Positions 30,805-40,454 of a stretch of 64,000 nt of DNA are shown here, piece by piece (positions within the stretch are counted from its first letter, which is position 1; each line of letters starts with the position of its first letter). The notes beneath the pieces are model-generated. The model worked only from the letters and a program-made list of their open reading frames with translations. It had not been told where the DNA came from and made no database searches. The DNA is taken from contig JAFIEZ010000015.1 of the NCBI GenBank assembly GCA_020832235.1, positions 124,001 to 188,000 of the forward strand, in the 5' to 3' direction. The position numbers and the translations under genes were made by a program. Origin of the DNA: Bacteroidota bacterium (GTDB taxonomy: Bacteria; Bacteroidota; Rhodothermia; Balneolales; HLUCCA01).

Positions 30805-30978
30805 CTAAGTTACAGAATTCGGGCGGGGTATGCTTGTGCCATCAGCCAAATCTTTGCATAGACTTATCAGCATTTGACAATAGTAATCGGCTTGATCTTC
30901 AGACCATGTGTCGAAGGAATATTCCCATATCTGGTTTAAATCTTCAACGGCTTTATTAGTCAGACGATATGTTGCCAT
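30805..30978 (-). pseudogene. parE: ParE toxin, truncated
   Basis: A 57-residue frame starting one base after the antitoxin stop. It begins MATYRLTNKAVEDLNQIWEY and continues SEDQADYYCQMLISLCKDLA, an excellent ParE N-terminal half. The usual C-terminal half (basic strand region and the final YRI/HxR motif, to ~95-100 residues) is replaced by TSIPRPNSVT and a stop. It is probably inactive as a toxin. Confidence 0.7.
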
Positions 30979-30979
30979 G

Positions 30980-31222
30980 CTAGCGTCTGACGGATTTCAA
31001 TTGCTCGAGGTTCTTTTGTGCGTCAAAATTGGAAGCTGTGCCACTGTCGATGCCTTCTTGAATGGCATTTCTAAGCGCAATAGCTTTGTTTTCTTCATTT
31101 TCCAGCAAACGCAATCCGGCCCGAATTACTTCGCTTACGTTCTTGTATCGCCCATCTGAGACTTGACTGTGAACAAATTGGTCAAAATAGTCGCCGAGTG
31201 ATATTGATGTGTTCTTGCTCAT
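30980..31222 (-). CDS. parD: ParD family antitoxin
   Basis: An 80-residue ribbon-helix-helix antitoxin: TSISLGDYFDQFVHSQVSDG, then YKNVSEVIRAGLRLLENEEN, and an acidic C-terminal helix with IQEGIDSGTASNFD. This is the classic ParD pattern: an RHH DNA-binding N terminus and a toxin-binding tail. It precedes a truncated parE by one base. A palindrome at 31259-31273 just upstream is its likely autoregulatory operator. Confidence 0.88.
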   Translation of the reverse strand: MSKNTSISLGDYFDQFVHSQVSDGRYKNVSEVIRAGLRLLENEENKAIALRNAIQEGIDSGTASNFDAQKNLEQLKSVRR

Positions 31223-31258
31223 GGCTATTCCTATAACTTGTACGTTAATCGATCAAAT

Positions 31259-31273
31259 TACCAAATATTGGTA
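31259..31273. promoter_or_regulatory. parD operator candidate
   Basis: TACCAA-ATA-TTGGTA is a perfect 6-bp inverted repeat with a 3-bp centre, 37 bp upstream of the parD start. RHH antitoxins commonly bind such sites to repress their own operon. Confidence 0.5.
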
Positions 31274-31279
31274 CTATTA

Positions 31280-31762
31280 TCAATTTACGAAGGTACAAAT
31301 CGACGTTGCCCCAATGCAGGCCAAGACAGGCAACCGACCTGTGGAAAACTGCATTAAGAACACAGTACGTACTCCGGTAATACTGCCCCCTACTCCAGAA
31401 TATGCAGTTCTAAGATCTCGGACCACTACATCTATTACCCAGTTTTTCAGGTTAACGGGTTGAGTGGAAATGTTCATGACTTCGATGAATTCGGCTGCGT
31501 TTTGGGGGGACTGGTGTTCGGAGTTATAGTGAACCTGGGAAATAATCAGCTGCATAGAGCCCGAGTTGCTTACGTTTACGCTCGGCGCTTTATGTGCATC
31601 ATGAAATCCTGCTGTTGACGTTTGGGCATCACTGACGGTCTTTAAGCGATTCGTTTGAGGCCAATAATTTGCCGACAAATCGTCAATGAGACTCGATGGT
31701 GTTAAACCGGTACGCTGTAATGTCGTAATATTTCCGTGTGAATCATAATGCAAATCTTCGTT
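31280..31762 (-). pseudogene. remnant: Rhs repeat segment joined to a lamin-tail-domain fragment
   Basis: Reading leftward from 31762, the frame encodes LHYDSHGNITTLQRTG and then LIDDLSANYWPQTNRLKTVSD, a standard Rhs-repeat order (YDxxGNIxxLxR, then a NRLxxVxD unit). It then changes to IISQVHYNSEHQSPQNAAEF and NLKNWVID, which fits the start of a lamin-tail domain (LTD) common in secreted proteins. The open frame extends rightward to 31795 only because it reads into the higA fossil (MHIHPIHTQAD). It looks like joined debris, not a gene. Confidence 0.6.
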
Positions 31763-31977
31763 ATCGGCTTGTGTATGTATGGGATGTATATGCATTGTAG
31801 TTGTCCTCCGGTGGTCAAACTGTATGTGCGTCTATTTTGTCATATTCGGCATGTGTACCGATAAAACGGACATTATCGTTTTTGCCCATTGGAAGGGAAT
31901 GTCCGACCCAATCAAAATAGGATGATTTAGCTCTAAAAATCGGCATCCCATCAGCTCAGAGACGATTAATGGAGGCT
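31763..31977. pseudogene. fossil duplicate of the higBA-hipA segment with internal deletions
   Basis: Three blocks match the intact locus. 31763-31871 aligns with 33535-33643 (104/109 identical): the higA start and higB end. 31872-31920 aligns with 34473-34521 (45/49): the hipA start. 31921-31977 aligns with 35631-35687 (57/57): the hipA end. The joins fall at short direct repeats present in the intact copy: GATAAAAC (33632 and 34461) and TCAAAATGGGA (34513 and 35622). It encodes no complete protein. Confidence 0.9.
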
Positions 31978-32044
31978 ACCGTTCTAAACTCTATGCGTAG
32001 TCCCCAGAAAATTCACTTAATCCCTTTTGTTTTAAAATCTGTTT

Positions 32045-32120
32045 TTGGTCATTATTGACCAACTAAAAAGGTCATAAAGATTAATTTTTTACCTATAATT
32101 GGCAAAATGACTTATTTTGC
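32045..32120 (+). promoter_or_regulatory. promoter/operator region of the XRE-RelE TA operon
   Basis: Two inverted repeats precede the XRE gene: TTGGTCA-TTAT-TGACCAA (32045-32062, perfect) and GCAAAAT-GACTT-ATTTTGC (32102-32120, perfect). The second ends 16 bp before the ATG at 32137. They are good candidates for binding by the XRE regulator or antitoxin. The stretch is strongly AT-rich. Confidence 0.5.
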
Positions 32121-32136
32121 AATAAACTAAGTAAAA

Positions 32137-32502
32137 ATGACAGTAGGCGAAAAAATAAAGCAAGTCCGTAAGGAGAAAGGACTACAGCAAAAAGCTGTAG
32201 CCCTAGAGATTGGTTTAGACCAAAGCAACTATAACAAAATTGAAAACGGAAGGCGAGAACCTTCTGTTGAAGTTTTACAGAAGCTTTCGGTTATTTTCGG
32301 GGTCACAGTGGACTATTTGCTGAACTTGGATAACAACCAACCAAGCCCGGTTACTGTGGAGGATAAAACCGTAACCGAAAAAATACGGCTGATTGAACAG
32401 CTTGAGGATGAAGATAAGCGCGTGATTTACAAAATGCTTGATACCATGCTGACCAAAAAGAAGTTTCAGGATTTCTTTCAGCAGAACATAGCAACCAAAT
32501 AA
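32137..32502 (+). CDS. XRE-family transcriptional regulator
   Basis: A 121-residue Cro/CI-type helix-turn-helix protein: IKQVRKEKGLQQKAVALEIG, then LDQSNYNKIENGRREPSVEV, and the extension FGVTVDYLLNLD. A C-terminal helical part (TEKIRLIEQLEDEDKRVIYK) may mediate dimerisation. It is the first of three closely spaced plus-strand genes (gap 8 bp to the next), so it may regulate the TA pair downstream. Confidence 0.85.
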   Translation: MTVGEKIKQVRKEKGLQQKAVALEIGLDQSNYNKIENGRREPSVEVLQKLSVIFGVTVDYLLNLDNNQPSPVTVEDKTVTEKIRLIEQLEDEDKRVIYKMLDTMLTKKKFQDFFQQNIATK

Positions 32503-32510
32503 TTTCGGAT

Positions 32511-32744
32511 ATGAGACTACAGATAATACAGGACAGCAAAGGCAAAGCCACCGGGGTTTATATCCCCATCAGCGAATGGAAGGAGCTAAAAAAACAGTAC
32601 AAAGACTTGGAAGCCCTGGAATATGAAGAACCTACCAAAGAGCAGATTTTAAAGGAGCTCAAAGAAGCCGTAAACGAACTTAAAATGGTGGAGCAGGGTA
32701 AATTGAAAGCACGTCCCGCAAAAGAGCTTCTGGATGAGTTATAA
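32511..32744 (+). CDS. antitoxin-like protein of the RelE pair
   Basis: A 77-residue protein beginning MRLQIIQDSKGKATGVYIPI with SEWKELKKQYKDLEALEYEE, then a long charged helix. A short DNA-binding beta start followed by an acidic helix is common in Phd/RelB-like antitoxins seen beside RelE toxins in Bacteroidota. It overlaps the toxin gene by 11 bp, so the two are translationally coupled. Confidence 0.75.
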   Translation: MRLQIIQDSKGKATGVYIPISEWKELKKQYKDLEALEYEEPTKEQILKELKEAVNELKMVEQGKLKARPAKELLDEL

Positions 32745-33060
32745 TATTTCTTCTTTACCGCTTTTTGACAAGCAGGCAAAGCGACTGCCCAAAAAATACC
32801 CTTCGCTTAAAAAGGACTTGGCCGGGCTTATTGAAAAACTCACCGATGAACCTGAACAAGGAAAGGCTCTCGGCAACAGCTTTTATAAAATCCGGCTGGC
32901 TATTGCTTCAAAAGGAAAAGGAAAATCAGGTGGAGCAAGGGTTATTACCTACGTGAAAGTAGCCCACAATACCGTTTACCTCACTTCCATTTTCGACAAG
33001 TCCGAAAAAAGCACCGTCACGGATAAGGAACTCGAACAGATTTTTAACTTGATTCCGTAG
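32734..33060 (+). CDS. RelE-like toxin (mRNA interferase family)
   Basis: A 108-residue RelE/HigB2-like toxin: PLFDKQAKRLPKKYPSLKKD, LGNSFYKIRLAIASKGKGKS, GGARVITYVKVAHNTVYLTS and IFDKSEKSTVTDKELEQI. These are the usual features of RelE-type ribosome-dependent RNases, with conserved basic residues. It looks intact. Its stop is directly followed by an Rhs remnant, showing that this TA operon sits inside old Rhs sequence. Confidence 0.85.
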   Translation: MSYNISSLPLFDKQAKRLPKKYPSLKKDLAGLIEKLTDEPEQGKALGNSFYKIRLAIASKGKGKSGGARVITYVKVAHNTVYLTSIFDKSEKSTVTDKELEQIFNLIP

Positions 33061-33206
33061 TTTGAATGATCTATAAAGCTTGAGGATACCAGTCTGTTTA
33101 TTGCGTCATAATTGAAGCCTTGCGAGTAATCAATATGCGAATGATTAAAATTCATCGAGGAGGTACAGGCCTCGTACTTTTTATACCTGCCAAGGCTGTC
33201 ATGCAA
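33061..33206 (-). pseudogene. Rhs core remnant
   Basis: The minus-strand frame reads MHDSLGRYKKYEACTSSMNF, then HSHIDYSQGFNYDAINRLVS. DSLGRYKKYE and FNYDAINRLVSS are canonical Rhs-repeat elements. It breaks off at the end of the RelE gene. The next expected Rhs element (YDSHGNI) resumes 1.3 kb further on, at 31762. No start or complete domain is present. Confidence 0.65.
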
Positions 33207-33213
33207 GCGATAC

Positions 33214-33567
33214 TTATTGTTGCAACAGCACTTCCGCGGGGATGTTGAGTTTTCGATGTAACAAGCGGATCATCTTAAGTGATAATGTTCTTTTACCCGA
33301 AAGGATTTCGCTCGCCCTCGATTTAGAACCTATAAATCCTGCCAAATCGCTCTGAGACAATCCGAGTTGTTCCATGCGAAACTTTACCGCTTCTATTGGA
33401 TCCGGGGCGTCAACGGGGAAGTGTCGTTTCTCAAACTCATCGACAAGGATGCCCAAAATTTCAAGTTCATCCCCTTCGATCGTTCCCGGTTTGGCATCAA
33501 AGATCTCTTCGATCCTACTTAAAGCGTTGTTATAATCGGCTTGTGTATGTATGGGATGTATATGCAT
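33214..33567 (-). CDS. higA: HigA-like antitoxin (XRE HTH)
   Basis: A 117-residue antitoxin. The N-terminal part (NNALSRIEEIFDAKPGTIEG, then DELEILGILVDEFEKRHFP) and the HTH (FRMEQLGLSQSDLAGFIGSK, then EILSGKRTLSLKMIRLLHRK) match HigA proteins coupled to the HigB_toxin family. In this family the toxin gene comes first, as here (19-bp gap). Its 5' end is duplicated in the fossil at 31763-31795. Confidence 0.88.
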   Translation of the reverse strand: MHIHPIHTQADYNNALSRIEEIFDAKPGTIEGDELEILGILVDEFEKRHFPVDAPDPIEAVKFRMEQLGLSQSDLAGFIGSKSRASEILSGKRTLSLKMIRLLHRKLNIPAEVLLQQ

Positions 33568-33586
33568 TGTCGTTGTCCTTCGGTGG

Positions 33587-33880
33587 TTAAATTGTATGTG
33601 CGTCTATTTTATCATATTCGGCATGTGTACCGATAAAACGGACAAACAACTGACCATAGTCATAATTGATTTTTACAATCAAGCGGTACGTATTTCCCTT
33701 GATGTTAAAAACAACACGATTATCGGATAAAATACTGGCGGATGGATATAATCGCTTGATGTCGGCAGGAGATGTCCATCGTGCTTTATCTGCTTCAGCA
33801 AACCATGATTTCAAAGATTGCTCGGCATCAGCATGCTTTGTCCAAAAATCAACCAGTGTTTTTCGTGAGAATACGCGCAT
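33587..33880 (-). CDS. higB: HigB mRNA interferase toxin
   Basis: A 97-residue HigB_toxin family protein: MRVFSRKTLVDFWTKHADAE, SLKSWFAEADKARWTSPADI, SASILSDNRVVFNIKGNTYR and the near-invariant end FIGTHAEYDKIDAHTI. HigB cleaves mRNA on the ribosome. ATG 33880 was chosen because family homology starts exactly there; the longer frame to 33991 adds unrelated residues. It looks intact and is divergent from hipBA across a palindrome. Confidence 0.92.
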   Translation of the reverse strand: MRVFSRKTLVDFWTKHADAEQSLKSWFAEADKARWTSPADIKRLYPSASILSDNRVVFNIKGNTYRLIVKINYDYGQLFVRFIGTHAEYDKIDAHTI

Positions 33881-34105
33881 GTTGCAGTATACAAAGTTCC
33901 CATATTGGGAACAAGAGTGATTTGGGATGCCGCTTTCTAGAACCGGTTGATAATCGGTTTGCACCAGCGGGTTTGGGCGTAGACGAATCACTCGCCCTCG
34001 AGGCGTACGTAATCGATGAGCATTGGGGCTGGGTAATCAAGACCCATGCACGTGGATTGTTACATAAAATTGGGGATGAGAATGCTCGTCAGCCGAAAAC
34101 AGAAT

Positions 34106-34162
34106 AGCCATAATGTTGATTACTATCAACATTATGGCTAATTTTGTTGATAATATTCAACA
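34106..34162. promoter_or_regulatory. hipBA operator region with a 15-bp perfect palindrome
   Basis: AGCCATAATGTTGAT (34106-34120) and ATCAACATTATGGCT (34125-34139) are perfect 15-bp arms around TACT. A second, smaller site, TGTTGA (34145-34150) / TCAACA (34157-34162), ends 2 bp before the hipB ATG. HipB dimers typically bind such operators to repress hipBA. The region also lies between divergent higBA and hipBA. Confidence 0.65.
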
Positions 34163-34164
34163 TT

Positions 34165-34449
34165 ATGAAGTCAAAGAAACAAAAAATATTCCCTCAGCAT
34201 CGTAAGATCTTAGAACAGTTTGGTGAAAACATTAAACTGGCTCGTAAGCGCCGTAAACTTACAACCACTCAGGTAGCTGAACGCGCTGCTATCAACCGGA
34301 CCACGTTGTATCATATTGAGCAGGGCAAACCGTCAGTGGCTATTGGTGCTTACTTTAATGTATTACGAGTCCTGAACTTACACGAGGATTTTCTGAAGTT
34401 AGCAGCAGATGATGAATTTGGTCGGAAACTGCAAGATATGAATCTATAA
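34165..34449 (+). CDS. hipB: HipB-like antitoxin (XRE HTH)
   Basis: A 94-residue Cro/CI-type HTH protein: FGENIKLARKRRKLTTTQVA, ERAAINRTTLYHIEQGKPSV, then VLRVLNLHEDFLKLAADDE. It lies 2 bp before hipA on the same strand. HipB neutralises HipA and represses the operon. ATG 34165 is preferred over 34144, which would begin inside the operator and adds a non-family sequence. Confidence 0.9.
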   Translation: MKSKKQKIFPQHRKILEQFGENIKLARKRRKLTTTQVAERAAINRTTLYHIEQGKPSVAIGAYFNVLRVLNLHEDFLKLAADDEFGRKLQDMNL

Positions 34450-34451
34450 GT

Positions 34452-35705
34452 ATGGCTTCTGATAAAACCGATATTATCGTTTTTGCCCATTGGAAAGGGA
34501 TGCCCGACCCAATCAAAATGGGAGTGCTTACTGCGCAGGAAGCTCGGGGGCATTTGGCGTGGAGCTTTGCTTATGAAAAAGAATGGCTGGATACACAATC
34601 TCAAATACAGTTAGATCCTGACCTAGAGTGGTTTACCGGTCCTCAATATTCCAAGGATAACAAACCGAACTATGGGATGTTTCTTGATTCCATGCCGGAT
34701 ACGTGGGGACGTACGCTCATGAAAAAGCGAGAGGCTCTACTAAAGCCGAAAGGTCAACCAAGACGAAAATTGACAGACATTGATTTTTTGCTAGGTGTTT
34801 TTGATCCGGCCAGGATGGGAGGGTTACGCTTTAAGTTAGATGAAGAGGGTCCTTTTTTGGATAATGATGAAGAGAAGTCTATCCCGCCTATTACAGATGT
34901 TCGGGAATTACAGGTGGGTGCTGACCTAGTGGAATCGGATGAGGGTTCTGAAGCTGTGCGGAAATGGCTGCAAATACTACTCGCTCCGGGATCTTCATTG
35001 GGTGGTGCCCGACCTAAATCATCCGTTATGGATGAAAACGATGAGTTATGGATCGCTAAGTTTCCTTCGCGAGAGGATACCACGGACAAAGGAGCATGGG
35101 AATATATAGCCTGGGAGCTTGCAAAGTTAGCAGGAATACGGGTGCCTGAAGCCAGAGTGGAACAAGTAGCCGGGAAATATCACACTTTTTTCTCAAAAAG
35201 ATTCGACCGTTCAGGTAAAGAACGTATTCATTTTGCTTCGGCTATGACGATGACGGGTCATTTAGAAACCGGGATTAGAGATTATACACCGAGTTATTTG
35301 GAGCTGGCTGAATTTATTCAATACAATGGGGCTTCCCCAGATGAAGATCTTCACGAACTATGGAGGCGTATTGTCTTCAACATTGCCACTTCAAATACAG
35401 ATGATCATTTAAGGAATCATGGTTTTGTAATTACGGAGGAAGGATGGCGCTTATCTCCTGCCTATGACATGAATCCATCCATTGACAAGGCTGGTCTCGC
35501 TCTTAACATTGATTTAGAATTGAATGCATTGGATTATGACCTCGCCCGATCTGTTGGTGAATATTTTAATCTTGAGGGCAAAGAAATGGATACCATCATT
35601 GACGAGGTCAAAGAGGCCGTTTCAAAATGGGATGATTTAGCTCTAAAAATCGGCATCCCATCAGCTCAGAGACGATTAATGGAGGCTGCATTTAATCTTA
35701 AATAA
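34452..35705 (+). CDS. hipA: HipA-family serine/threonine kinase toxin
   Basis: A 417-residue HipA. The Gly-rich nucleotide loop with the autophosphorylatable Ser region is LAPGSSLGGARPKSSV (178-193). The catalytic loop TSNTDDHLRNHGF lies at 313-325 and the metal-binding LSPAYDMNPS at 334-343. HipA kinases phosphorylate glutamyl-tRNA synthetase or other targets, halting translation and causing persistence. All key residues are present, so it should be active. Its 5' and 3' ends are also found joined in the fossil at 31872-31977. Confidence 0.93.
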   Translation: MASDKTDIIVFAHWKGMPDPIKMGVLTAQEARGHLAWSFAYEKEWLDTQSQIQLDPDLEWFTGPQYSKDNKPNYGMFLDSMPDTWGRTLMKKREALLKPKGQPRRKLTDIDFLLGVFDPARMGGLRFKLDEEGPFLDNDEEKSIPPITDVRELQVGADLVESDEGSEAVRKWLQILLAPGSSLGGARPKSSVMDENDELWIAKFPSREDTTDKGAWEYIAWELAKLAGIRVPEARVEQVAGKYHTFFSKRFDRSGKERIHFASAMTMTGHLETGIRDYTPSYLELAEFIQYNGASPDEDLHELWRRIVFNIATSNTDDHLRNHGFVITEEGWRLSPAYDMNPSIDKAGLALNIDLELNALDYDLARSVGEYFNLEGKEMDTIIDEVKEAVSKWDDLALKIGIPSAQRRLMEAAFNLK

Positions 35706-35722
35706 ATTATTTTGTGGCCAAT

Positions 35723-35738
35723 AAAATGATCATTTTTT
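35723..35738 (+). terminator. AT-rich hairpin after hipA
   Basis: AAAATGA/TCATTTT followed by TT forms a short, AT-only-flanked palindrome 18 bp after the hipA stop. It is a weak terminator candidate. Confidence 0.3.
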
Positions 35739-35743
35739 GATTG

Positions 35744-35881
35744 TTACCGATGCTTCCACGATATCAAGTGCAGATAGTCTTTTATTAACATCTTTATTCG
35801 CTGGCAGGCAGAATCCTCAACAATGGAACTCCGTTGTTCTTCCCAACGGCCTGTGATTTCAGTTTCAGTGGGTTTGATCAT
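35744..35881 (-). pseudogene. fragment resembling an Imm27-type immunity protein
   Basis: A 45-codon minus-strand frame reads MIKPTETEITGRWEEQRSSI, then VEDSACQRIKMLIKDYLHLI. The pattern ExxITGxW, acidic turn, CxRIxxLIxxYL resembles the N-terminal half of Imm27 immunity proteins. The rest is missing. It directly follows the second Rhs tip/immunity pair, where orphan immunity genes are expected. The family call is from memory of the pattern and is tentative. Confidence 0.4.
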
Positions 35882-35920
35882 GGCTACGGCACTCTTCGAA
35901 TTGTCGCTGAACGGGTACAG

Positions 35921-36268
35921 TTAGATTTGATTTAGCTTATCAATGACACCTTGTACAAACGACTTCCAATACGATGGCAAATGCGAATCATTGGCATGCA
36001 TGTTATTAAGAATCTTTTCAAGTTCTGGAAGGTACTGAACAGCCTCCAGTCGGCCGATCAAATCTATAGCATATTCAGCTTTTACCTGATCATAACCTTG
36101 AAGCCAATCTCCAAGAGCCCTGATTATTGCATCATACAATGCACCTTCATGTTGCCGAATTTTCCATTCAATTCGCTTTAATAGCTCTTCACCGCTTATC
36201 TCTTCGGGAAGGTTTTTATATAAATCATCCAAAAATAAAAGTGCTTCCTGTTTTAATTCGTTGTCCAT
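35921..36268 (-). CDS. putative immunity protein for the Rhs ART-like toxin tip
   Basis: A 115-residue, all-helical acidic protein (MDNELKQEALLFLDDLYKNL ... SYWKSFVQGVIDKLNQI) with no signal peptide. I recognise no family with certainty. Position argues for immunity: it starts 2 bp after the stop of the Rhs toxin tip on the same strand. Small, acidic proteins directly after a toxin tip are the rule in polymorphic toxin loci. Confidence 0.6.
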   Translation of the reverse strand: MDNELKQEALLFLDDLYKNLPEEISGEELLKRIEWKIRQHEGALYDAIIRALGDWLQGYDQVKAEYAIDLIGRLEAVQYLPELEKILNNMHANDSHLPSYWKSFVQGVIDKLNQI

Positions 36269-36270
36269 AG

Positions 36271-37035
36271 CTATTTAATTCTTCTTATAAATTCCGGTGG
36301 CACATTTCCTCTAATCAATACTTCTTGTCCACCTCCAGGCATATTAAACATTCTGCCAACCTGCTGAGGTTGTGAAACATTTATCCCAGCTTGCCGCAGG
36401 CCGCCGGCATTGATTTCGAATACTGCACCTGGTAGACCTCGATTAGGTGGCAAAGCTAAATCAATTTGAGCTTGTAGGGGTGAAAGTGAGCTATTAGGTG
36501 TTGCATAAACTGTACCTCTACTACTTCTTATTCCTGTTGCAGTAATGCTTTCTGCATTACTCGCTGATGTGTAATGGAAAACTCTTCCAAAATCACCAGT
36601 ACTTGTAACATTATCCGCCACCTTCAATCCCTGTGCGGTTCTGGTAGCAGCTCCTGCACCCTTAGCACCCAGAAGAACTTCCCCGGTCAGTGCAACCACT
36701 TCACCGGCCACCTGCCCCATTAACAGCGGGTTTCCGCTGGTAGCCATATCCACTCGTTCGCTAATTCCCTCGCCAATGGCCGAAAGAGTTTCTCGTGGGT
36801 TCGATATCGCATGACCCAAAGCACTCATCGTACCAGGAAAGTCCGTAACTAAACCTCTTATTCCTTCATATGTACTGGACAGTGATTGCTCAAAACCCTG
36901 ATGCATTCCTACACAGAAAATACCTGCAGCAATGGGGCAGTTTCCATCTGGATCAGTATAGCGTGCAGGATTATTGAGGGTATAGTTATAGGGACTCCAG
37001 CTTGGGTATCCATCCGCCATCGGATGCACACTCAA
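36271..37035 (-). CDS. detached Rhs C-terminal cassette with ADP-ribosyltransferase-like tip
   Basis: The frame begins at the end of an Rhs core, SVHPMADGYPSWSPYNYTLN then NPARYTDPDG, the standard hinge before a variable toxin. Only TTG or an internal Met is available as a start, and two in-frame TAG codons lie just upstream, so it is a detached cassette. A linker with a Gly/Ala-rich helical stretch follows. The last ~105 residues (GRVFHYTSASNAESITATGI ... GTVYATPN ... FEINAGGLRQAG) resemble HYD1-type ART toxins, which start with HYT. The target is unknown. Confidence 0.65.
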   Translation of the reverse strand: MSVHPMADGYPSWSPYNYTLNNPARYTDPDGNCPIAAGIFCVGMHQGFEQSLSSTYEGIRGLVTDFPGTMSALGHAISNPRETLSAIGEGISERVDMATSGNPLLMGQVAGEVVALTGEVLLGAKGAGAATRTAQGLKVADNVTSTGDFGRVFHYTSASNAESITATGIRSSRGTVYATPNSSLSPLQAQIDLALPPNRGLPGAVFEINAGGLRQAGINVSQPQQVGRMFNMPGGGQEVLIRGNVPPEFIRRIK

Positions 37036-37074
37036 AAACTACTAATAACCTTTGTCATACTTCTCGCACTTTTA

Positions 37075-37620
37075 CTACTTAATTCTATATCTGCCATAAA
37101 AGCCCTTATCGCGATAATCTGCAACATGAAAGTACACATATTCATCAACTATGATAACATTGCGGACCCGTCCATGAATAACTCTTTGATCTAGAAGCTC
37201 AAAAGTTTCACGATCAAAGGTATTAAGCCTCGAATATATGGGTCTAAAAAAGTATCTGAAGAAACCATCTTCTATACCTAAATTTCCATCCATCATTATA
37301 ATATAATCATCAAATAAATATATCCATTTTAATTGGGTAGAAAATTTAAAAACCTTATCTCCTTTAACAGTTTCACGGATTTGGCCATATCTTTGTTCAA
37401 TGACATAGCCCTCGTTTTTCAAGATATCATGTGGAACTATTCTATTTCCTTCCTCATCTCTTGTCCCATGCCACCCCGATGGAAACGGTACCTCAATCCC
37501 TGCTTCTTCTAATTCCTCATCACTGATTACTTCGTACTCACCTTCGATGTAACCGCATCCTGAGAGTACGCCGAAAATGAGGATGAAGTGAATTGTGTAT
37601 AAAGTTTTAACCTTATTCAT
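37075..37620 (-). CDS. lipoprotein, candidate immunity to the Rhs hydrolase tip
   Basis: A 181-residue protein with a lipoprotein signal (ILIFGVLSGCGY, Cys22). The mature part is rich in beta-strand-like segments with several Tyr and Asp residues. I do not recognise a family. It begins 4 bp after the stop of the Rhs protein with a lipase-like tip. Periplasmic lipoproteins that protect against phospholipase effectors are known next to such effectors (Tle/Tli pairs), so immunity is a reasonable inference. Confidence 0.55.
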   Translation of the reverse strand: MNKVKTLYTIHFILIFGVLSGCGYIEGEYEVISDEELEEAGIEVPFPSGWHGTRDEEGNRIVPHDILKNEGYVIEQRYGQIRETVKGDKVFKFSTQLKWIYLFDDYIIMMDGNLGIEDGFFRYFFRPIYSRLNTFDRETFELLDQRVIHGRVRNVIIVDEYVYFHVADYRDKGFYGRYRIK

Positions 37621-37624
37621 TGTA

Positions 37625-38761
37625 TTAAGGCCTTAATAAGCGTATCATGGGTACATTATTATGCATTTGTGAATGTGATCTAATCGGGTTCCTACCTGCC
37701 GGTTGAGTAGCATTGACATTTCTAGCTCCTGGCTGAATACGGCCTGCCGGCAAGCCGATAAACATTAAACCCGTTGCCGAGCTCGAGATTCTATATGTAT
37801 CATATCCCCCTAATACCTGTACAGCATCATTGTTAGAGAATATATTCACATGATTTCCTACGACTCCATCACCTGCCCTGTATTCATCTCTTGAAGGTGT
37901 TCCGATTGTGATAAGATTGTCCACACTCAATTCTCCATTCGTTCTTTCCGATAACATATTGGCTGCAAGTATACCAACATTGCCGCCATGGCTGTGTGCA
38001 ACGATATTTATTTCCATTTCAGGATTTTCTTTAAGAGCCTCCAAAATAGCATCCACAAGATCTTCGGCCGCTTCAACTCTTGCCTGATGTGTATTTGCCC
38101 CCGACCAATTAAAATTATCGGCGCGATCATCATTCAAGTATTGCTCCCAAGCCTCTAAGCCAATCTGAGTCCATGTTATATCACTTGATAAAGTTCCATG
38201 CACAAACCATATATCCCTGCCATCTGGATCAATAGAGATCACGGGATTATTAGCTACATAAGCATAGGGAGATATTCCCGGATAGTTCGATGCATGAGGA
38301 TCCACACTGTTAAACCGCCCGATGAACGGATCGTACGTCCGGGATTCGGCGTGGTACCATCCTAAGTCGCCTTCGTCTTCTGCCTCGTAGCCCGTGAATT
38401 TGATCATATCGTGGGTGTTGGCCGTGTTCGCGCTTCGGGTTGGCATGGGCAGTCCGAACGGGTAATAGTCGCTCCAGCTGAGCAGGTCTCCATCCCGGTT
38501 CACCACTGCACGTACCGATCCCAGGTGGTCGGTGAGGTAGTACTGACTCTCCGGAGCGTTGCTCACATGAATGCCGGTGATGGTGCGGGTATGGGTTCGA
38601 CCAACGGAGTTATGTACCTGCAACTGTACCTGCCAGCCTGTCCCCGCTTGGGTGAACGTGTGCCAGTAGGTCGGACTGCTCGATACCTGCGTCCACGCCC
38701 CGAAACCTCCATTGCGTACCCGCCAGGTGTAGCTGACCTTATTAAAAACTTGAACTGCCAT
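37625..38761 (-). CDS. Rhs-core fragment with alpha/beta-hydrolase (lipase-like) toxin tip
   Basis: A 378-residue protein. An Ig-like beta segment (YTWRVRNGGFGAWTQVSSSP) leads into an Rhs core end: YYLTDHLGSVRAVVNRDG, then FTGYEAEDEGDLGWYHAESR, and the hinge GRFNSVDPHASNYPGISPYA ... NNPVISIDPDGRD. The tip (~190 residues) is an alpha/beta hydrolase with WFVHGT (oxyanion region) and the nucleophile elbow IVAHSHGGNVG. Full Rhs proteins exceed 1000 residues, so the N-terminal shell is missing; an in-frame TAA lies just upstream. It likely encodes a phospholipase-type toxin cassette. Confidence 0.72.
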   Translation of the reverse strand: MAVQVFNKVSYTWRVRNGGFGAWTQVSSSPTYWHTFTQAGTGWQVQLQVHNSVGRTHTRTITGIHVSNAPESQYYLTDHLGSVRAVVNRDGDLLSWSDYYPFGLPMPTRSANTANTHDMIKFTGYEAEDEGDLGWYHAESRTYDPFIGRFNSVDPHASNYPGISPYAYVANNPVISIDPDGRDIWFVHGTLSSDITWTQIGLEAWEQYLNDDRADNFNWSGANTHQARVEAAEDLVDAILEALKENPEMEINIVAHSHGGNVGILAANMLSERTNGELSVDNLITIGTPSRDEYRAGDGVVGNHVNIFSNNDAVQVLGGYDTYRISSSATGLMFIGLPAGRIQPGARNVNATQPAGRNPIRSHSQMHNNVPMIRLLRP

Positions 38762-39374
38762 TACGTTGTAGCAAGTGGCCTTGAGTGTTTATTGTGTTGT
38801 ACGCATAATACCCATCTAAAAGCCGTGCAACCGTTAGAATTTGCACCATGTAATACGTACGTAGTAGCCGAGAATGTCCGAGTTTAAAAGACATACTTTT
38901 AAGGAAACTATCTGACGTTTTGTACCGGGTATTGGATATTCAGGGCATTTCCCCGCTTCAAAATGGCCAGTAAACGGCTCCGGTATAGCACATCCCAATG
39001 GAAAATTACACGCTGTAATTACGCGAGCGATCCGATTAAATACTATGCCGATTATCGGGGAAGCTTTCACGTTGATCAGCGGCCAAATTTCATCAAGAAT
39101 ACTTCTTACCGGTTTGAGCCATTTTACACCAATCTCATCGCGGGTGAATCGTACGGTTACGAGGTGATTCGATTTCATAACATACAGTTGCCGATTATAT
39201 GCCGTGATTGATGCCAATTGAAAGAACTTTGGTATACACCATAACACATGGCATAGATCAAAAGTGTTGGTCTTTAGCGACATTTATGCATATATTTATA
39301 TCATCAAAGCTGCCGGGCCTCTGTGGAAACACACGCTTCCTAACGGTAGCTTTTTCTATTTTGTAGATTTAGCA
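38762..39374. other. region of about 600 bp without a recognised gene
   Basis: Between the Rhs fragment and the Abi gene. A 149-residue minus-strand frame (38834-39283) and an 82-residue plus-strand frame (38963-39211) overlap each other; neither shows a family motif. Reading the minus strand just upstream of the Rhs frame gives debris-like sequence with stop codons. It may be eroded Rhs or secreted-protein sequence, but I cannot support a gene. Confidence 0.3.
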
Positions 39375-40274
39375 GTGAAATATACAAAACCCTCACTCAC
39401 CATCGATGAACAAGTTAAACTTTTGCAATCCAGAGGGATGGCGGGTGACCCTACACGAATAGGCCGCAGATTAAAGGTTGTCAATTACTATCGCCTTAGC
39501 GGTTACTGGTACCCATTCCGAAACCCGGATAACTCCTTTGCACCGGGAACGAACATCGAAGAAGTTTGGAAACGATACATGTTTGATCGCAAACTCAGAC
39601 TTTTGGTGATGGATGCTATCGAACGGATTGAGGTAGCTGTTCGAACCCAAATAGCATATCACCAATCGAGTCAATTTGGACCGTTTGGATACATTGAACA
39701 GCCTAATGCATTGCCCACCAAAGTTAAACCAGACCGAACTGAACTGTTAGAGTGGATTCGTAAAGACGTGACTCGTAGCCGAGAATCCTTTATGAATCAT
39801 TTTCAGAAAAAATACGGTTCGGATCATCCATTTCCCCCAATTTGGATCGCTACAGAGGTCCTATCATTCGGCACCGTAGTTGCGCTTTATCGGCGTAGTC
39901 CAAAGTGGCTTCAAAAAAACATCGCCAAGGAATTTGATGTGCCCTCAGTGGCCTTCCAATCTTGGCTGTTAACATTGAATACGATACGTAATTATTGTGC
40001 GCACCACAGCCGATTGTATAACCGTGTTTTCACACTAAAACCGGAGATTCCACCCAAGCATTCTGTACCCGACTGGCATAGCCCTTTTGTAATTTCGAAC
40101 GATCGTGTGTTCGCTATTTTAAGCATCTGTAGATATCTGATGCAACGCATCGCGCCAAACAGTCAGTGGGGATATCGGGTCGTTAAGTTAATTGAAGATC
40201 ATCCTAACATTCCTCTTATAGTGATGGGAATACCTCAAAACTGGAAAGATCACGAACTATGGAGAGAGATTTGA
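39375..40274 (+). CDS. Abi family abortive-infection protein (Abi_2, AbiD/AbiF-like)
   Basis: A 299-residue Abi_2 protein. It has the family opening KYTKPSLTIDEQVKLLQSRG, the RRLKVVNYYRLSGYWYPF block, FDRKLRLLVMDAIERIEVAV, and the C-terminal NTIRNYCAHHSRLYNRVF, which carries the RxxxxHxxR-like (RNYCAHHSR) HEPN-type motif. HEPN RNases of this kind abort phage infection. GTG 39375 is chosen because homology begins with its second codon; ATG 39264 adds 37 unrelated residues. It lies beside the Rhs array at the right end of the accessory region. Confidence 0.85.
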   Translation: MKYTKPSLTIDEQVKLLQSRGMAGDPTRIGRRLKVVNYYRLSGYWYPFRNPDNSFAPGTNIEEVWKRYMFDRKLRLLVMDAIERIEVAVRTQIAYHQSSQFGPFGYIEQPNALPTKVKPDRTELLEWIRKDVTRSRESFMNHFQKKYGSDHPFPPIWIATEVLSFGTVVALYRRSPKWLQKNIAKEFDVPSVAFQSWLLTLNTIRNYCAHHSRLYNRVFTLKPEIPPKHSVPDWHSPFVISNDRVFAILSICRYLMQRIAPNSQWGYRVVKLIEDHPNIPLIVMGIPQNWKDHELWREI

Positions 40275-40454
40275 ATTCCGGTTGCATTTACTATAGCTCC
40301 GTTTCGCTCTTTTGTTTTTAATTCCTGATGAAATGATGCTTTTGACTTAGGTTTTTAGTGTAAAAATGGATGAACACCCTGCAAATCACCAATATTTTCA
40401 CCACATTGGTCGTTTAGTGTCTTTTCAAATCAACTGTTTACTAATCGTCATACT

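Follow-up and report, generated by a model that had tools for sequence, protein, structure and literature searches.

A probable remnant of a second higBA-hipBA locus, with deletions at short direct repeats, beside the intact copy

How much of the history of a deleted toxin-antitoxin (TA) locus can be recovered from what is left behind? Deletion remnants in Bacteria are mostly unreadable, the ancestor being gone. The window analysed here, a stretch of 64,000 nucleotides of a Bacteroidota genome, holds a short remnant at positions 31763-31977 and, at a distance of only 1.6 kb, an undeleted relative; one of the two deletions in the remnant is also carried by a sister species, so that the choice of repeats, the order of the deletions and their recurrence can all be examined. 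From what did this remnant derive, and by which route did it decay?

The 215 bp consist of three blocks, all on the same strand and in the same order as the higBA-hipBA locus at 33535-35687 (2,153 bp). Block 1 (31763-31872) joins the 5' end of higA and the 3' end of higB, both on the minus strand in the intact locus, and is identical to 33535-33644 at 105 of 110 positions (95%). Block 2 (31873-31921, plus strand) corresponds to the 5' coding end of hipA (45/49 to 34474-34522), and block 3 (31912-31977, plus strand) to the hipA 3' end, out of frame past the second junction, with 65 of 66 positions identical to 35622-35687 and 57/57 from 31921 on. Two segments of 829 bp and 1,109 bp are gone, and with them hipB and the greater part of higB, together with the palindromic gap at 34105-34140. 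The positions and identity counts that the initial annotation had given for these blocks hold in both a repeat search and a base-by-base alignment, and the pairwise alignment that it had proposed as a check confirms collinear blocks with internal deletions. Used as a DNA query against all 20 contigs of the genome (3.38 Mb), 31740-32000 gave three matches (E=5e-45, 2e-26 and 3e-18), all to the intact locus and nothing else. A different hipA, collinear with the blocks and free of such deletions, was rejected as their source, the only other hipA-like gene of the genome being 46% identical in protein. It is thus highly probable that this stretch is a non-functional remnant, or fossil, of a second copy of the composite higBA-hipBA locus.

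The intact neighbour comprises two divergent gene pairs. On the minus strand, the higB toxin gene (33587-33991; HigB_toxin PF09907, E=1.8e-33; solved HigB structures, E=1.9e-6) precedes an adjacent higA-like antitoxin gene (33214-33567; HTH_3, E=8.6e-9; its match to the NCBIfam HigA model is below cut-off), a toxin-first arrangement typed as higBA by its HigB_toxin domain and neighbouring HTH antitoxin. The listed higB open reading frame begins at a GTG, and its true start is probably an ATG about 36 codons in. On the plus strand, a hipB-like antitoxin gene (34144-34449; HTH_31 above cut-off; couple_hipB E=1.3e-10, below the curated cut-off), listed from a TTG with its start likely at the ATG at 34165, lies upstream of a hipA-like kinase toxin gene (34452-35705; HipA_C PF07804, E=1.7e-49). 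The segments NTDDHLRNHGF and SPAYDMNPS of the latter align with NEDMHLKNF and SPAYDL of HipT (8ezr), and the kinase domain, these catalytic segments and the upstream HTH antitoxin identify the pair as a putative hipBA module. A repeat search found a perfect 16-bp inverted repeat, TAGCCATAATGTTGAT / ATCAACATTATGGCTA, at 34105-34140 in the divergent gap between higB and hipB; it is a likely operator and has no counterpart in the fossil. Intact reading frames and family matches suggest that this locus works. With HigB_toxin, HTH antitoxins and a HipA_C kinase toxin it resembles the type II higBA and hipBA modules, whereas the fossil encodes none of these.

Both junctions can be read base by base. 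Junction 2 (31912-31922, 1,109 bp lost) joins hipA positions 34523 and 35622 and falls exactly on a perfect 11-bp repeat, TCAAAATGGGA, of which the intact gene has two copies (at 34513 and 35622, as initially annotated), flanking the segment that is missing from the fossil. A single copy is left at fossil position 31912, with one base change (TCAAAATaGGA). TCAAAATGGGA is the longest direct repeat within hipA, and in the 2.15-kb locus only one other pair reaches 11 bp, its two copies lying close together in the hipB operator region. Repeats of at least 11 bp arise in about half of Markov simulations of the locus, so that the length by itself is not rare. However, only about 6e-6 of the possible junctions in the locus would fall inside a run of at least 11 bp, which argues that repeat and deletion go together. 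Since 1,109 is not divisible by 3 and a TGA is met at once, the hipA stub ends after 24 codons and no toxin remains.

Junction 1 (31860-31872, 829 bp lost) is less regular. The 8-bp perfect repeat GATAAAAC does occur in both parental sequences where it had been placed (33632 and 34461). Beyond it, however, the fossil keeps to block 1 for 5 bp, reading GGACA, versus CGATA in hipA. The switch therefore lies at 31872/31873, within an imperfect 13-bp direct repeat (GATAAAACsGAyA, 11/13), and not in the 8-bp repeat. Flush repeats of 11/13 account for 2e-5 of the possible junctions. Either two mismatches were tolerated in pairing, or the lost copy had ACG GAC for ACC GAT, a synonymous difference. 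The description of both lost segments as bounded by short repeats is accordingly exact for junction 2, and for junction 1 needs correcting by the 5 bp that separate the switch from GATAAAAC.

From these junctions we infer the following route. A second copy of the locus would have lost 829 bp, from within higB (most of which is gone) across the operator region and the whole of hipB to the start of hipA, as well as 1,109 bp amounting to nearly all of hipA. Both deletions may have taken place between short direct repeats, by strand slippage or by annealing without need of RecA. Further trimming would then have created the junction with an Rhs fragment on the left and, on the right, a junction inside an insertion sequence (IS) of ISAon1 type. 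What had been annotated as microhomology-mediated deletion of toxin genes is borne out as regards the lost toxin segments and the repeats at the joins (perfect 11 bp; imperfect 11/13), the molecular part of it being the one that is conjectural.

Deletion hot spots in lacI are the classic case of short-direct-repeat deletion in E. coli. In E. coli K-12, short direct repeats can recombine independently of RecA, with the exchange in a stretch of perfect homology (PMC5426353). The fossil is similar in that DNA between short direct repeats was deleted; however, the E. coli events are experimental and ongoing, whereas ours are old and their route is reconstructed. A further parallel is offered by the natural deletions of Haloquadratum walsbyi, often in mobile or pseudogene-rich regions, which likewise leave one copy of a short direct repeat at the join (4-20 bp; a 10-bp example is ACATCATTCT) (PMC3119063). 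There, strains were compared at one locus, whereas here the undeleted copy resides in the same genome and one of the deletions is also present in a second species. Short-repeat deletion is thus a well known mechanism, and what this locus adds is the second species with an identical deletion. Our literature search on the decay of TA genes through short repeats turned up nothing specific. The locus offers a small, testable case of such decay, in which one may ask whether the longest available short repeat sets the site where a toxin gene is lost.

The second species is Bacteroidetes bacterium HLUCCA01 (LIHN01000017.1), a sister genome assembled from a metagenome and a member of phototrophic consortia (PMC5468372). 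Its hipBA remnant occupies the orthologous site, with the same genes on either side, and runs from the equivalent of window positions 34332-34523 (97% identity) straight into 35622-35770 (97%), with an exact 11-bp overlap at the TCAAAATGGGA repeat. It still has the 3' half of hipB and the hipA start, and therefore did not undergo deletion 1. When the genome contigs were scanned for the junction-2 pattern, HLUCCA01 alone had it; the viral contigs had none. All five differences between HLUCCA01 and the intact copy in hipBA coding sequence fall within 9 bp (34477-34485; ATCGTTTTTGCC to AAGGTTTACTCC), a cluster that looks like one multi-base event, and the remaining shared hipBA coding bases, to 35699, are identical.

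Where did the second copy come from? The initial annotation saw in the blocks direct evidence of segmental duplication, and this is too strong: no relative with two complete copies turned up when we searched, as it had proposed, the three congeners and 129 genomes of the order, and acquisition followed by decay fits equally well. Each copy changed after the split: the intact copy is derived at 33611, where the fossil still agrees with most homologues, and the fossil is derived at 33592 and probably at 33588. Duplication in place is a plausible source. Alternatively, another strain may have supplied the same Rhs island with a second, slightly different higBA-hipBA locus that subsequently decayed, a scenario that we rate a little short of an even chance. 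Fossil and intact copy are 4-5% divergent, similar to the 3% for the remnant of HLUCCA01, which is another species, and cassettes of the island have clearly been exchanged (AbiE in HLUCCA01; XRE-RelE and Abi_2 in the window). However, the 129 genomes of the order include no donor, and the pairing of higBA with hipBA is common to both copies, which also speaks against acquisition.

Is the shared junction 2 the product of one deletion or of two? We somewhat favour two separate deletions at a hot spot. Over just 118 bases, all that the three sequences have in common, the fossil differs from the intact copy at 6 positions, HLUCCA01 from the intact copy at 5, and the fossil from HLUCCA01 at 11; the intact sequence is thus intermediate, and no change is common to both deleted forms. 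The Phe/Tyr difference at residue 11 was left uncounted, since it lies inside the 9-bp, five-change cluster of HLUCCA01 and may belong to one event. Residue 18 of the outgroup hipA is Ser in the nearest homologue (G082) and Pro in the next (G125), and the differences among fossil, intact copy and HLUCCA01 are not polarised. Several of the fossil changes are synonymous or lead to residues found in homologues, and the HLUCCA01 cluster, I-V-F-A to K-V-Y-S, is also HipA-like; this hints that both forms diverged while still coding.

A single origin would have an ancestral hipBA copy, already lacking the 1,109 bp, give rise to both the fossil and the HLUCCA01 remnant, with the intact copy adjacent to it or brought in afterwards through recombination at the 3' end that the copies share. 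In its favour, both species have an identical junction at one chromosomal site, and one crossover at the hipA 3' end would leave the two copies in the observed order, the deleted one on the left and, to its right, the intact one with the resident right flank. However, no derived base unites the fossil and the HLUCCA01 remnant over the 118 bp, and in a four-taxon likelihood comparison of these bases (outgroup, the intact G082 gene, 79% identical) the tree joining the two deleted forms was the lowest of the three, though not significantly so, and none of the three was rejected. An extra recombination is also needed, because in HLUCCA01 the remnant is followed by the same right flank as the intact copy. 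We hold a single deletion to be somewhat less likely, and these same observations (no common change, the lowest though not significantly lower likelihood, the right flank) are why two events are preferred. With two events, junction 2 would be a slippage hot spot at which a deletion flanked by the 11-bp repeat also took hipA from the orthologous site of HLUCCA01. We lean slightly towards the view that HipA was removed twice independently in this way, in two species at one site, perhaps being kept because loss of the toxin was favoured; if so, the locus provides a natural replicate of a deletion hot spot. That the three blocks reflect mere chance similarity or an assembly artefact, for which nothing speaks except their shortness, is scarcely conceivable and was rejected by the genome-wide DNA search (E-values of 3e-18 to 5e-45), the more so as the fossil lies within one 215-kb contig, its substitutions relative to the intact copy are scattered, and junction 2 is also present in a separately assembled genome.

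The fossil is truncated on both sides; the initial annotation had passed over both edges, as well as the surrounding island and the HLUCCA01 deletion. The right edge of the fossil (31977/31978) adjoins a 46-bp match to the right end of an ISAon1/ISL3-type IS (31979-32024, plus strand), with the last transposase codons, a stop and the end TCCCCAGAAAATTCACTTAATCCC. This remnant is 91% identical over 47 bp to G000:C10:1314-1360, at the end of a DDE_Tnp_ISL3 / ISAon1 transposase reading frame whose match scores below the NCBIfam whole-protein cut-off. The same IS end occurs in two further genomes (G009 and G039), and the family was assigned from this one end, which in longer copies stands beside an ISAon1-type transposase. 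On the left, the fossil is cut by a Rhs/YD-like and lamin-tail-like fragment (31280-31762, minus strand); the lamin-tail match (LTD, E=1.8e-7) is below the Pfam cut-off, and the Rhs/YD reading was made by eye, Rhs models giving no match to the fragment. The genome contains no second copy of it, and the exact left junction is therefore not defined. A chimeric reading frame at 31280-31795 fuses the first 11 codons of the fossil higA in frame with this fragment.

Flanks common to the window and HLUCCA01 end at about 30841 and resume at about 40357, enclosing an island of 9.5 kb in the window (30842-40356) and of 3.4 kb in HLUCCA01 (L020 9958-13331). The former carries parD with a truncated parE, Rhs pieces, the fossil, the IS remnant, XRE-RelE, higBA, hipBA, an Rhs core end and Abi_2; the latter carries the hipBA remnant, an Rhs core end and DUF6088-AbiEii. 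One chromosomal site in two species thus hosts islands of differing cargo, with Rhs core ends in both. Rhs-associated cassette islands are similar in that their toxin and antitoxin cassettes lie scattered among Rhs core ends and orphan fragments, whereas the present island, known from sequence alone, holds mainly TA and Abi modules and remnants. In HLUCCA01, the hipA 3' flank is joined directly to the region upstream of the gene at 40357 (L020 about 9958), with about 4 bp (AGTG) common to window positions 35751-35770 and 40340-40360; the 4.6 kb of Rhs/Abi DNA found in the window is absent from this join. The ParE toxin gene beside parD (30805-30978) is truncated to profile positions 1-48 of 89, and it ends at the edge of the island (about 30841), the point from which HLUCCA01 is again homologous. 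Between XRE-RelE and higBA, a minus-strand reading frame at 32976-33206 contains the Rhs/YD-like stretch YDAINRLVSSSF and is probably another Rhs crumb.
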